From assembly GCA_030532815.1 (NCBI GenBank), contig JAUNKI010000058.1:1-11118 (forward strand): a stretch of DNA of 11,118 nt. The letters are read 5' to 3'. Positions 1-11,118 of the stretch are shown here, piece by piece. Every line of letters starts with the position of its first letter. Within the stretch, counting starts at the first letter, position 1. The position numbers were made by a program, and so were the translations under genes. The notes beneath the pieces are model-generated. The model made no database searches, was not told where the DNA came from, and saw nothing but the letters and a program-made list of their open reading frames with translations. The DNA comes from Leptotrichiaceae bacterium. Lineage in GTDB: Bacteria > Fusobacteriota > Fusobacteriia > Fusobacteriales > Leptotrichiaceae.

Positions 1-992
1 AAGACGAGCATATAAATTATGCATTGAAATATGAAAGTGTACACAACAGTTTTGACGATATGGAACTGATACACTGTTCAATACCTGAATATAATATAGA
101 AGACATTGATATTTCAGTAAATTTTGCAGGAAGTAAATTTGAATGTCCTTTTTTTATAAATGCCATGACGGGCGGAAGTCAGAAGGGAAAAGAAATAAAC
201 AGGAAACTGGCAAAAGTCGCTAAAAAATGTAATTTGCTTTTTGTAACAGGCTCTTACAGTGCGGCACTTAAAAATCCCGATGACAGTTCTTTCAGAATAG
301 TGAGAGAGGAAAATAAAAATCTACTGCTGGGAACGAATATCGGAGCGGATAAGGATTATAAAGCGGGACTTAAAGCAATAAAAGATTTGAATCCCCTGTT
401 TCTGCAAATTCATGTAAATCTTATGCAGGAACTTATAATGTCTGAAGGAAGCAGAAATTTCAGTAAATGGCAGGAAAATATAAAAGGTTTTGCAGAAAAT
501 ATAAAAATTCCCCTTATACTTAAAGAAGTAGGATTCGGGATGAGTGAGGAAACAATAAAAAAAGGAATGGAGCTCGGAATAAAAACTTTTGATATAAGCG
601 GCAGGGGAGGAACGAGTTTTGCCTATATTGAAAACGCAAGAAGAAAAAATACATTTTCCTATTTAAATGATTGGGGTCAGACAACGGTAGTATCACTTCT
701 GAGTGTAAAAAAGTATATGGAAGATGTGGAAATAATAGCGAGCGGTGGTATCAGAAATCCTCTGGATATAATAAAATCCTTAGTACTGGGAGCTAAAGGA
801 GTAGGAATTTCAAGGACGATACTAAAACTCATTGAAGAAAGTTCCGTTGAGAATGTAATTGAAATTATGAATAGCTGGAAAAATGAATGTAAAATGATAA
901 TGTGTGCATTGAATTCAAAAAATACAGATGAATTGAAAAATGTAAAATATATATTATATGGAAAAACAAGGGAAGCTCAACGTTTTTTGTAA
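1..992 (+). CDS. fni: Type II isopentenyl-diphosphate delta-isomerase, 5' end cut by window edge
   Basis: FMN- and NAD(P)H-dependent isomerase interconverting IPP and DMAPP, cytosolic, normally serving the mevalonate route to isoprenoids. The reading frame is open from the first full codon (base 3) and begins DEHINYALK, which matches the family's N-terminal (R)KDEHI substrate-binding motif. The true start therefore lies only a few residues before the window, and the TTG at 24 is internal. Downstream motifs are complete: FINAMTGGS, LLGTNIG, the HVNLMQE segment with the Gln-Glu pair that binds substrate phosphate and Mg2+, LKEVGFGM, the flavin-binding SGRGGTSFAYIEN, and SGGIRNPLDIIKSLVLGAKGVGISR near the C-terminus. 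About 330 residues are present, close to full family length. The protein resembles streptococcal Fni closely (from memory of that family). Upstream context is not visible, so whether other mevalonate genes precede it is unknown. TAA stop at 990-992. Confidence 0.93.
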   Translation, partial: DEHINYALKYESVHNSFDDMELIHCSIPEYNIEDIDISVNFAGSKFECPFFINAMTGGSQKGKEINRKLAKVAKKCNLLFVTGSYSAALKNPDDSSFRIVREENKNLLLGTNIGADKDYKAGLKAIKDLNPLFLQIHVNLMQELIMSEGSRNFSKWQENIKGFAENIKIPLILKEVGFGMSEETIKKGMELGIKTFDISGRGGTSFAYIENARRKNTFSYLNDWGQTTVVSLLSVKKYMEDVEIIASGGIRNPLDIIKSLVLGAKGVGISRTILKLIEESSVENVIEIMNSWKNECKMIMCALNSKNTDELKNVKYILYGKTREAQRFL

Positions 993-1055
993 AAAAGTTC
1001 GATCAAAAAACAATTCAACACAAATTTTACTAAAACTCAAAAATGCCTGTTTGCT
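993..1055 (-). repeat. Partial inverted copy of the dispersed intergenic repeat
   Basis: Directly after the fni stop codon, this stretch aligns on the + strand with 11043-11105 at the right end of the window. Shared blocks include AAAAAAGTT, GA.CAAAAAAC, CACAAATT and AACTCAAAAA, in the same order and spacing. Because 11030-11118 is itself a reversed copy of the repeat at 1109-1381, this fragment lies in opposite orientation to its neighbour, making an inverted pair. It is more diverged than the other copies. Confidence 0.55.
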
Positions 1056-1108
1056 GTAAAAACAAAAAGGATGTTTTTAGAACGCTCACTTTACGCATTT
1101 TTTACGCA

Positions 1109-1381
1109 GTAAAATTTGAACGTTGAAGAGAATTGAAATATAAAGAAACAATTTTAAATGAAAGTGTAATTAAACTGTAATGGTGAAGAAATATATAATT
1201 AAATTATAAGTAAAATCCCGACATTCAAATTATTTCAACGAAAAAAATACGGGAATGAACGTTAAGAAAAATCACTGTCTGAGCGAAGCGAGTTTGTGAT
1301 TTTTTAGTGAATGGAATGTTTTTGAGTTAGAAATAATTCGAGTCGGAAGTTTTTGGTCAAACTTTTTTTCAAAAAAGTTTG
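1109..1381 (+). repeat. Dispersed ~275-bp intergenic repeat, copy A
   Basis: Aligns along its whole length with 5106-5384. Shared blocks in order are GTAAAATTTGAA, GTGAAGAG/TTGAAGAG, CGACATT, AAATTATTTCAAC, a hairpin core, GTGATTTTT.AGTGAATG, GTTAGAAATAATT, AGTCGGAAGTTTTT and CAAAAAAGTTT. It carries an AAAAATCAC/GTGATTTTT stem (1267-1275 with 1296-1304) around a GC-richer loop containing GAGCGAAGCGAG. It ends in a near-perfect dyad, CAAACTTTTTT TC AAAAAAGTTTG (1358-1381). No convincing reading frame runs through it. It lies between two convergent genes. Confidence 0.75.
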
Positions 1382-5105: not shown

Positions 5106-5384
5106 GTAAAATTTGAATAGTGAAGAGAAATTGAGATATAAAGGAAATAGTTTTAAACAGAAGTGCAGCTGAATTGTAATGAGATAATAAAAGTATAAAA
5201 TTGAAATAAAAGTTAAAATCCGACATTTAAATTATTTCAACAAAAAATACGAGAATAAATGTTTGGAAAAATCATTGTCTGAGCATAGAGAATTTGTGAT
5301 TTTTCAGTGAATGAAGTGTTTTTAAGTTAGAAATAATTTAAGTCGGAAGTTTTTCGATTCAACCATTTTTTCAAAAAAGTTTTG
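5106..5384 (+). repeat. Dispersed ~275-bp intergenic repeat, copy B
   Basis: Second long copy of the element at 1109-1381, same orientation, diverged by scattered substitutions and small indels. Best conserved from about 5219 to 5350: CGACATTTAAATTATTTCAAC, the GTGATTTTT arm, CAGTGAATG, GTTAGAAATAATT and AGTCGGAAGTTTTT. The terminal dyad is eroded, but TTTTTTCAAAAAAGTTT remains. The internal stem AAAATCAT/GTGATTTT keeps pairing through a G-T pair. Confidence 0.75.
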
Positions 5385-5488
5385 GAAAGACCTTGTTAAG
5401 CTTTTTGTAAAAAGCATAGAAAAGTCGGTAATAAGTATATGAAACGGGAATGAATTCTCACATTTATATTATTAAATATTTTTATTTC

Positions 5489-5606
5489 TCAAAGATATTC
5501 ATTATGTTTAAAAAAGAGTAAATTCACTTTGCTCGGACAGCTGTTTTTTCGTTTAGTATAATTAATTCATACTTTTTCGGAAAATTTTGAATGTCGGGGT
5601 TTTAAT
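5489..5606 (-). repeat. Diverged reversed copy of the dispersed repeat (copy D)
   Basis: Read on the + strand this aligns with the reverse complement of copy A. CTCAAAGATATTCATTATG matches CTCAAAAACATTCCATTCAC, GCTCGGACAG matches the reversed hairpin loop GCTCAGACAG, and TTTGAATGTCGGGGTTTTA matches TTTGAATGTCGGGATTTTA. Together with copy B it forms an inverted pair within one intergenic region. Confidence 0.6.
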
Positions 5607-10503: not shown

Positions 10504-10812
10504 ATGTCAATTATAACGGAACTGGTAACATTGAAATCTATAAATAATGTTACAAGAGACGAATTTATTTCTATTGTTGACAGTCTGGAAAAGAATTTTC
10601 ATTCTAAACAGGACGGGTTTATTGACACTGAGCTTCTTTATGATGAGAAAAAAAATACTTGGATAATGATACAACATTGGGAAACAGCGGAGCATTTAAA
10701 AATTGCTTCTAAAAAGATTTTCAGTGACAACGCTGCGAAATCTTTTATAAAATGTGTCGATCCTGAAAGTGTGAAAATAGTAATTACAACACAGATAGAA
10801 GTATGGAAATAA
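10504..10812 (+). CDS. Antibiotic biosynthesis monooxygenase (ABM)-like small protein
   Basis: 102 residues predicted to form one dimeric alpha-beta barrel (ferredoxin-like) domain. It starts with MSIITELVTLKSI as the first strand, a helix over DEFISIVDSLEKNF, then QDGFIDTELLYDE, WIMIQHWETAEHLKIASKKI (the W-E/T-x-A-H-L pattern typical of ABM proteins), and a final strand SVKIVITTQIEVW. AAGGAGGTG lies six bases before the ATG. Members include quinol monooxygenases and IsdG-type haem oxygenases, but also many of unknown role, and I see no residue that fixes a substrate. No cofactor motif. Follows the AraC-type regulator on the same strand and is closed by a terminator at 10824-10856. Confidence 0.8.
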   Translation: MSIITELVTLKSINNVTRDEFISIVDSLEKNFHSKQDGFIDTELLYDEKKNTWIMIQHWETAEHLKIASKKIFSDNAAKSFIKCVDPESVKIVITTQIEVWK

Positions 10813-10823
10813 TGATATTTTTG

Positions 10824-10856
10824 TGAGGGCGATAATAAGCCCTCAAATTTATTTTT
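10824..10856 (+). terminator. Rho-independent terminator of the ABM-like gene
   Basis: TGAGGGC (10824-10830) / GCCCTCA (10839-10845), 7-bp GC-rich stem with an 8-base loop, followed by a T-rich run (TTTATTTTT, 10848-10856). It starts 11 bases after the stop codon. The stem sequence recurs, reversed, at 10943-10966. Confidence 0.8.
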
Positions 10857-10888
10857 ACGCTTTTTGAAAAAAGCTTTGCAAAATACTC

Positions 10889-10931
10889 CAAACTTTTTTG
10901 GAAAAAAATTTGACAAAAAACCGACGACTCA
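10889..10931 (-). repeat. Partial copy of the dispersed repeat end (C1)
   Basis: CAAACTTTTTTGG followed by AAAAAA(A)TTTGACAAAAAACCG.CGAC, matching 11030-11070 almost base for base in the same orientation. It corresponds to the reversed right end of repeat copy A, including most of its terminal dyad. Confidence 0.65.
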
Positions 10932-10942
10932 ACTTTTTCTCC

Positions 10943-10966
10943 GTGAGGGCTCATCGCCGCCCTCAC
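10943..10966. repeat. GC-rich perfect hairpin, reversed relative of the nearby terminator stem
   Basis: GTGAGGGC (10943-10950) / GCCCTCAC (10959-10966), 8 bp with an 8-base loop. Its reverse complement, GTGAGGGCGGCGATGAGCCC and onward, resembles the terminator stem at 10823-10845. No T tract follows on either strand, so it is not itself an obvious terminator. GC-rich against its surroundings. Confidence 0.6.
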
Positions 10967-11029
10967 ACTCCTGCTATCGGCTACAAAATTTTTTATCACT
11001 CAAAAATATTCATTATGCTTAGAATAATA

Positions 11030-11118
11030 CAAACTTTTTTGGAAAAAAGTTTGACAAAAAACCGCCGACACAAATTATTTCTAAACTCAAAAACACTCCA
11101 TTCACTAAAAAATCACAA
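11030..11118 (-). repeat. Dispersed repeat copy C2, reversed, truncated by window edge
   Basis: The reverse complement reads TTGTGATTTTTTAGTGAATG, then GTGTTTTTGAGTTTAGAAAT and so on, matching copy A from about 1294 to 1381 with few differences. It ends in a perfect dyad AAACTTTTTT GG AAAAAAGTTT (11031-11052). The element continues beyond the right edge. Just to its left, 10997-11029 has a further diverged fragment (CTCAAAAATATTCATTATG), nearly identical to part of copy D. Confidence 0.75.

Follow-up and report, generated by a model that had tools for sequence, protein, structure and literature searches.

A hairpin loop kept letter for letter in repeats of several phyla points to a widespread, so far unnamed kind of mobile repeat

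We describe here a dispersed repeat of a Leptotrichiaceae genome whose full copies are inverted doublets of two-hairpin arms, and whose large hairpin carries an apical loop, AACTCGCTTCGCTCAGACA, that recurs letter for letter in hairpin repeats of several phyla. This shared loop suggests a widespread kind of mobile repeat that has not been named so far. We lean towards reading the Leptotrichiaceae repeat as an inverted doublet of REPIN-like type, non-autonomous and spreading as DNA by means of a putative factor acting in trans. The stretch analysed, referred to as the window (11,118 nt), is contig C119 of a draft genome (G000; 230 contigs, 82.5% complete). It was compared with two further genomes of the genus, G001, which is closed in a single contig of 2.29 Mb, and G002.

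The initial annotation of the window had proposed a family of intergenic repeats with two long copies, A (1109-1381) and B (5106-5384), and a reversed copy at 11030-11118. All three are real: positions 1242-1354 and 5242-5354 are 86% identical, and 1327-1382 and 1294-1328 match 11029-11118 in inverted orientation at 89% and 97% identity. Copies are not few. The 273-bp sequence of copy A gives at least 47 matches in G000 and at least 33 and at least 41 in the two congeners (E ≤ 0.001), counts that are lower bounds because 40 candidates were scored per genome (in G000, 40 of 198 first-look candidates), and dispersed copies within G000 are up to 93% identical. Several G000 contigs, that of the window included, stop within a copy, so that copies are undercounted in this draft. 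The same query finds a match in 19 of 33 Leptotrichiaceae genomes; beyond the genus the matches are short pieces, except for two of 140-155 bp in one genome (G020).

Copy A is a 404-bp unit, longer than first reported, in which two arms face each other in the order H1'-H2'-centre-H2-H1 (Table 1). Its left part, from position 978, aligns in inverted orientation with the right part at a score of 84, compared with at most 43 in 200 shuffles, and the alignment is thus better than that of shuffled sequence. The segment 993-1055, previously described as a fragment paired in inverted orientation with copy A, is repeat sequence and is so paired, but it is a portion of the left arm of copy A and not a stray piece. 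This left arm is of a type (T1L) whose H2' apical loop differs from the conserved one. The view that all copies are intergenic is nearly correct: copy A takes in the final 15 nt of the ORF upstream (978-992), and among the 108 repeat clusters of the three genomes nine extend over more than 30 nt of an ORF with 80 or more codons. That upstream ORF ends (last four codons and stop) inside H1', congeners have other endings, and insertion of copy A seems to have replaced the C-terminus of the encoded protein. Relatives of the first gene of the window were sought in genome contigs and none was confirmed. The loop variant ACAAACTCGCTTCGCTCAAACA, found in the window at 1276-1295 and in other G000 copies, is a perfect mirror repeat whose minus strand holds GCGAAGC, a very stable DNA mini-hairpin.

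Table 1. Repeat features of the window. Positions are those of the window; the strand is given where assigned.
Feature	Position	Strand	Basis
Copy A, whole inverted doublet, 404 bp	978..1381		inverted-repeat score; arms by profile 982-1144, 1214-1375
H1', terminal hairpin of left arm	978..1001	+	letters checked; covers final 15 nt of ORF ending at 992
H2', large hairpin of left arm, T1L type	1014..1127	+	TTCAAC/GTTGAA and CAAATTTTACT/GTAAAATTTG
AT-rich centre separating the arms of copy A	1128..1217		letters
H2, large hairpin of right arm, T1R type	1218..1346	-	base stem CCGAC/GTCGG; inner stem 1267-1275/1296-1304; covariation
Conserved apical loop, minus strand AAACTCGCTTCGCTCAGACA	1276..1295	-	letters; cross-phylum scan
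H1, terminal hairpin of right arm	1358..1381	-	letters; covarying helix 1
Copy B: degenerate left part, H2 5220-5346 (loop 5276-5295), H1 5360-5383	5106..5383	-	81% match over 5106-5382
T2-type arm without outer hairpin	5474..5606	+	profile match 5474-5600
H1-like hairpin, imperfect flavour	10856..10879		by eye
H1 hairpin, tandem module	10889..10912	+	within weak T1L match 10893-10940, score 21
Outer part of T2 arm, GC-rich terminal hairpin 10943-10966	10941..11024	+	T2 match 10940-11040
T1R arm truncated by contig end: H1 11030-11053, H2 from 11065	11030..11118	+	T1R match 11035-11118

Copy B and the segment 5489-5606 do not make one simple inverted pair, because the latter is an arm of another type, T2. 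The far end of the window (10823-11118) is a series of several hairpin modules broken off by the contig end. The hairpin at 10823-10845 (GTGAGGGC..GCCCTCA), directly after a gene ending at 10812, looks like the terminal hairpins of T2 arms (cf. 10943-10966), as if T2 ends had derived from, or settled on, gene terminators.

When 99 stretches picked around repeat matches were searched with profiles, there were 213 matches to arms, which fall into three types (T1R, T1L and T2); 38 pairs of these matches overlap on opposite strands because the arms are themselves palindromic. All types follow a common plan. From end to centre, it starts with a short terminal hairpin, H1, of about 20-30 nt, whose first arm is rich in pyrimidines; after a spacer comes the large hairpin H2 (about 110-130 nt in the genus), which has the conserved apical loop and an internal-loop motif that recurs (CTAA / TTAACG), and which finishes near AATTTGAATGTCGG. 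With overlaps removed, 30 of 39 pairs of neighbouring arms in the genus face inward, 3 outward and 6 in tandem, and the gap is 65-97 nt in 23 of the 30 inward pairs. At some G000 loci the outer part of a T2 arm is joined in tandem to a T1R arm, which indicates that modules stack. Four G001 arms (at 171,178; 461,591; 569,455; and 2,171,552) have a loop enlarged by a small extra hairpin in its middle (e.g. GGATTAAAAATCC), with the rest kept. Elsewhere in G001 (C1:46,616-57,969; L123, L124, L125) the intervals between seven copies in the same orientation are close to multiples of 1 kb, as though a gene had been amplified in tandem together with its repeat; the arms of this array are antisense to the genes, unlike most other arms in that genome.

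The proposal of a structured repeat is borne out by covariation of the stems. This was assessed on 41 of the 57 near-complete T1R arms (46 were listed by script, and five long G001 arms, L133, L134, L139, L140 and L141, were omitted, those inspected having an expanded loop), with random redistribution of the 3' letters as the control. The 35 named pairs contain 78 double-change cells, against 24.2 ± 3.7 when re-dealt (0 of 500 reach the observed value), and slid versions of the pairing give at most 29. Pairs that change on both sides number 13, against 10.0 ± 1.3 re-dealt (12 of 500 reach this), and comprise 6 of 10 in helix 1 (H1), 4 of 11 in helix 2, 0 of 5 in helix 3 and 3 of 9 in helix 4, the inner stem of H2, which reads AAAAATCAC/GTGATTTTT in G000 and AAAAACAAC/GTTGTTTTT in G001. 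RNAalifold finds an extra base stem, one pair of which is G-C in 17 arms, A-U in 16 and broken in 8. In a separate count of 94 terminal hairpins 339 of 470 cells are paired, with at most 251 when re-dealt. Such covariation is not by itself proof of selection on folding, as template switching can keep long palindromes perfect.

The genes on either side of a repeat cluster are in tandem for 56 of the 108 clusters, convergent for 22 and divergent for 5; the remaining 25 have no called ORF to one side, in most cases where a contig ends. Among gaps of at least 60 nt, a copy is present in 21 of 25 where the genes converge, in 55 of 91 where they are in tandem and in 5 of 16 where they diverge, figures in which only the contrast between classes counts, as the stretches were selected around copies. 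Sites filled in one species are unfilled in another. Site A has no element in G001 and a different element, with a T2 arm, in G002; site B has a T2 arm only, in G002. Eight further G000 sites, each searched with both flanks, include five that look empty or much reduced in one congener or both (C148, C3, C122, C95 and C113), one that is occupied in G002 (C32) and two that are uninformative (C211 and C2). At C148 the T1 doublet is absent from G002, in which a remnant of the adjoining T2 end remains. At most sites insertion and loss are not distinguished. Base-by-base comparison of sites A, B, C148 and C3 gave no target-site duplication evident by eye, the relatives being too diverged for a firm no. 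The earlier suggestion of a miniature mobile element therefore fits in kind, in that copies are dispersed, form inverted doublets with a near-constant gap and are present or absent between species, but no enzyme was found in the search for a Y1 transposase or among the genes near loops.

The apical loop of H2 extends far beyond the genus. An exact scan for AACTCGCTTCGCTCAGACA in one genome per species matched at least 117 stretches in several phyla, where about two would be expected by chance (an estimate with equal base frequencies); the matches listed include Marinobacter, Variovorax, Stenotrophomonas, Ralstonia, Nitrospira, Lachnospiraceae, Parabacteroides, Sphingobacterium and Selenomonas. 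The loop usually tops an inverted repeat, the stem sequence of which varies by lineage. At the 80 cross-phylum loci examined from these stretches, the flanks are complementary at 8 or more of 10 bases in 59 of 88 occurrences and at 9 or more in 40 of 88 (two of the 90 lay too near a locus end), the latter against a re-dealt mean of 0.9 and maximum of 5. Mechanical ORFs of at least 100 codons span 31 of the 90 occurrences, and we take most of these for chance ORFs in GC-rich palindromes. Among 14 genomes, all selected for carrying the loop, its 17-mer reaches 109 copies in one Lachnospiraceae genome, and the same pattern read backwards is present in none. Of 98 Fusobacteriota genomes 25 have the loop, and three genomes from a single genus have 34-40 copies each. 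The backwards control is not clean in this phylum (13 matches in G000, one in G002) because the loop variant ACAAACTCGCTTCGCTCAAACA is a mirror repeat. One of the three genomes, with 40 copies, is that of Ilyobacter polytropus DSM 2926 (G088), and all 13 listed loops on its plasmid pILYOP01 are intergenic according to the PLSDB gene table, which is incomplete; the seven gaps read there share the same order, H1 (such as GTTACTTTTC..GAAAAGTAAC) and then H2. Thirteen Leptotrichia (g6) loci have the same loop within a shorter, otherwise different element.

Loop pairs no more than 600 bp apart at the 80 unselected cross-phylum loci comprise 5 inward, 3 outward and 1 tandem, and the doublet layout is thus not universal across phyla. 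In stretches from two genomes (G036 and G039), several of which were chosen for holding a pair, all 19 loop pairs face inward, one of the G036 pairs (L329) lying between genes that mechanical ORFs place as divergent. At the G036 loci, which are from Lachnospiraceae (L326-L336), the loop tops a hairpin of ~200 nt whose stems, by eye, differ by many paired changes, and the inward pairs are 284-434 bp apart. A 36-nt loop-hairpin query gave eight weak records in a plasmid collection (E 0.1-0.3) and no match in a phage collection; the 17-mer of the loop is present in eight viral contigs.

The order of the two hairpins also recurs outside the genus. A perfect hairpin lies 42-115 nt upstream of the loop in 43 of 111 distinct occurrences with 200 nt on both sides, compared with 3 of 111 in the mirror window downstream and 69 of 2220 random windows. 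The first arm of this hairpin is often rich in pyrimidines, and its loop often resembles CTTG. The loop of this H1 can pair with sequence just 3' of the hairpin over at least 5 bp in 20 of 32 distinct hairpins (re-dealt mean 7.7, maximum 15, 0 of 1000 reaching) and over at least 6 bp in 14 of 32 (re-dealt maximum 8). Sequence downstream shows a mirror match to the purine arm of H1 in 12 of 31 cases (re-dealt maximum 9, 0 of 500 reaching) and a direct match in 9 of 31 (maximum 9, 4 of 500). The two sets have different loop limits, and over-represented related genera cause these statistics to overstate independence. By prediction, a subset of the upstream hairpins could therefore form an H-type pseudoknot. 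The stem-2 matches are not all in one register, and the arms of the window have an H1 loop that is not long enough to form this second stem.

Inspection of loop neighbourhoods, which took in 460 ORFs up to 2.5 kb from a loop, gave no recurrent neighbour gene. The largest cluster of neighbouring ORFs, ABC transporter-like by eye, covers six loci only and was rejected as a shared neighbour. One loop copy, on plasmid pAT2 of Aureibacter tunicatorum (L295), is next to a tandem pair of tyrosine-type recombinase genes and falls inside an annotated hypothetical ORF of 63 codons. Tandem tyrosine recombinases were rejected as a general driver: in a comparison with 5091 ORFs, from the window and from loci L169 onwards, they matched a single viral locus beyond themselves.

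In the explanation we favour, the unit would be an arm of H1 and H2, two of which face inward across a short centre with no gene carried, and the element would spread within a genome as DNA and settle between genes. Movement would be by transposition, with the folded single strand as substrate for a trans-supplied factor, presumably an enzyme, that would recognise it through the loop and internal loops. Recognition of this kind would explain why these features are constant across phyla while the stems change by lineage. We hold more tentatively the wider proposal of one multi-phylum superfamily of mobile, gene-free elements, each with a pseudoknot- or triplex-like hairpin and a long hairpin, which a widespread factor may recognise as a folded single strand via the identical loop and the internal-loop motif, the stems being free to vary.

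The most serious competitor, which we nevertheless judge unlikely, is an RNA element: the arm would be transcribed within the 3' untranslated region (H1, possibly as a pseudoknot, plus H2) and would protect, process or localise the mRNA, with dispersal secondary. Here the evidence conflicts, both for orientation and for the kind of pair tolerated in the stems. In G001 a facing stop codon is no more than 30 nt away in 20 of 29 cases, as against just 8 of 42 in G000 and 12 of 42 in G002. Likewise, the T1R arms of G001 outside the tandem array are sense in 12 cases and antisense in one, and across phyla, where the 3' end of a gene faces the loop, 33 are sense and 11 antisense (leaving aside the 31 of 90 occurrences that fall within mechanical ORFs), whereas the sense to antisense ratio is 5:7 in G000 and 0:7 in G002, and five arms of the G001 array are antisense. 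As the species disagree, sense orientation was discarded as proof of an RNA. In a count that used 125 of 144 rows, G.U exceeds A.C across phyla (41 against 17), as expected of RNA, but not within the genus (37 against 44). The possible pseudoknot described above would also suit an RNA; five clusters in which doublets lie between divergent genes would not. The doublet layout, the patchy presence and the unoccupied sites make spread as DNA the better reading. Relic palindromes, once mobile and now kept perfect by mutation (template switching at hairpins) with no factor reading them, would account for the decayed copies in congeners (at site B, and the G002 element at site A) and for the symmetry of G.U and A.C in the genus. 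We find this improbable, because template switching cannot keep an unpaired loop identical over phyla.

Spread as DNA could in principle mean a REP/REPIN proper, moved by a RAYT (Y1) transposase, and inverted doublets with compensatory changes are indeed described for REPINs (PMC3116915). A search for PF01797 (Y1_Tnp) found none in G000 (82.5% complete), none in the closed genome G001 and one, with an internal stop, in G002; with no intact copy in the three genomes, a Y1 transposase was dismissed as the present-day driver. H2 is moreover far longer than a REP, and the constant GTAG or CGTC head is missing: next to the T-run the H1 flanks (n = 94) are AAAC/GTTT in 15, CTAC/GTAG in 13, AACC/GGTT in 7, ACGC/GCTT in 7 and TTCC/GGAA in 6, with GTAG common only as part of a pairing arm. 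We regard this identity as very improbable, and place at the same low level a bidirectional transcription terminator repeat, despite the A- and T-runs that flank the inner stem and the preference for convergent over divergent gaps. The initial annotation had allowed for a terminator, and for copy A this is not upheld, as a scan of 900-1520, covering that copy only, gave no intrinsic terminator (a GC-containing stem followed by a T-run). Beyond copy A, and outside the element, there is by eye a separate hairpin with a T-run (1403-1452), which is more likely to be what terminates the convergent genes; in both relatives, which lack copy A, a hairpin is retained at this position, and GC-rich versions of the repeat in other phyla appear by eye to have no T-run.

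Intergenic repeats are mostly regarded as lineage-specific. An identical loop over phyla, set in stems that vary by lineage, implies that something common reads the loop, and the loop together with the structure model offers a bait for a recombination, repair or RNA-binding factor. The repeat could become a second large class beside REP/RAYT.

Rfam gave no match to the window at E ≤ 1, and for eight cross-phylum loci eight matches at E ≤ 0.5, all under the gathering score. In one open-access literature library the loop sequence retrieved no matching paper on bacterial repeats by title or abstract, and the H1 sequences retrieved virus papers only, with no description of the repeat. Bacterial MITEs, ERIC, BOX and RUP repeats are gene-free, dispersed, intergenic, palindromic or modular, and partly transcribed; to our knowledge they are lineage-specific. 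The present repeat resembles them in its gene-free, dispersed, intergenic and palindromic build, and the arms of copy A form terminal inverted repeats as in MITEs, but it has no clear target duplication in the few sites compared. The 37-nt, G/C-rich potential intrastrand triplex motif TM_ECO consists of a pyrimidine arm, a purine arm and a further purine stretch (PMC4666352). H1 of other phyla has the same arm order, with the mirror matches given above, whereas TM_ECO has neither the second hairpin nor the conserved loop. Among 3161 candidate structured RNAs of the human microbiome 250 are reported as palindromic, several of them in Bacteroidetes (PMC8040213); by description, not by sequence, these resemble our repeat in being structures readable on both strands. 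The closest likeness is to REPINs or REP-BIMEs with their RAYT (TnpA_REP), which are described as dispersed extragenic inverted hairpin doublets with compensatory changes, recognised by TnpA_REP via loops and stem irregularities (PMC3116915, PMC8266576, PMC3733652). The present repeat shares the dispersed extragenic inverted doublets (predominantly inward-facing), the hairpins and the compensatory changes. What is new relative to REPINs is that this REPIN-like layout occurs without the constant GTAG/CGTC head and in a genus without an intact Y1 transposase, in an element of ~400 bp with two hairpins per arm and a loop common to several phyla.
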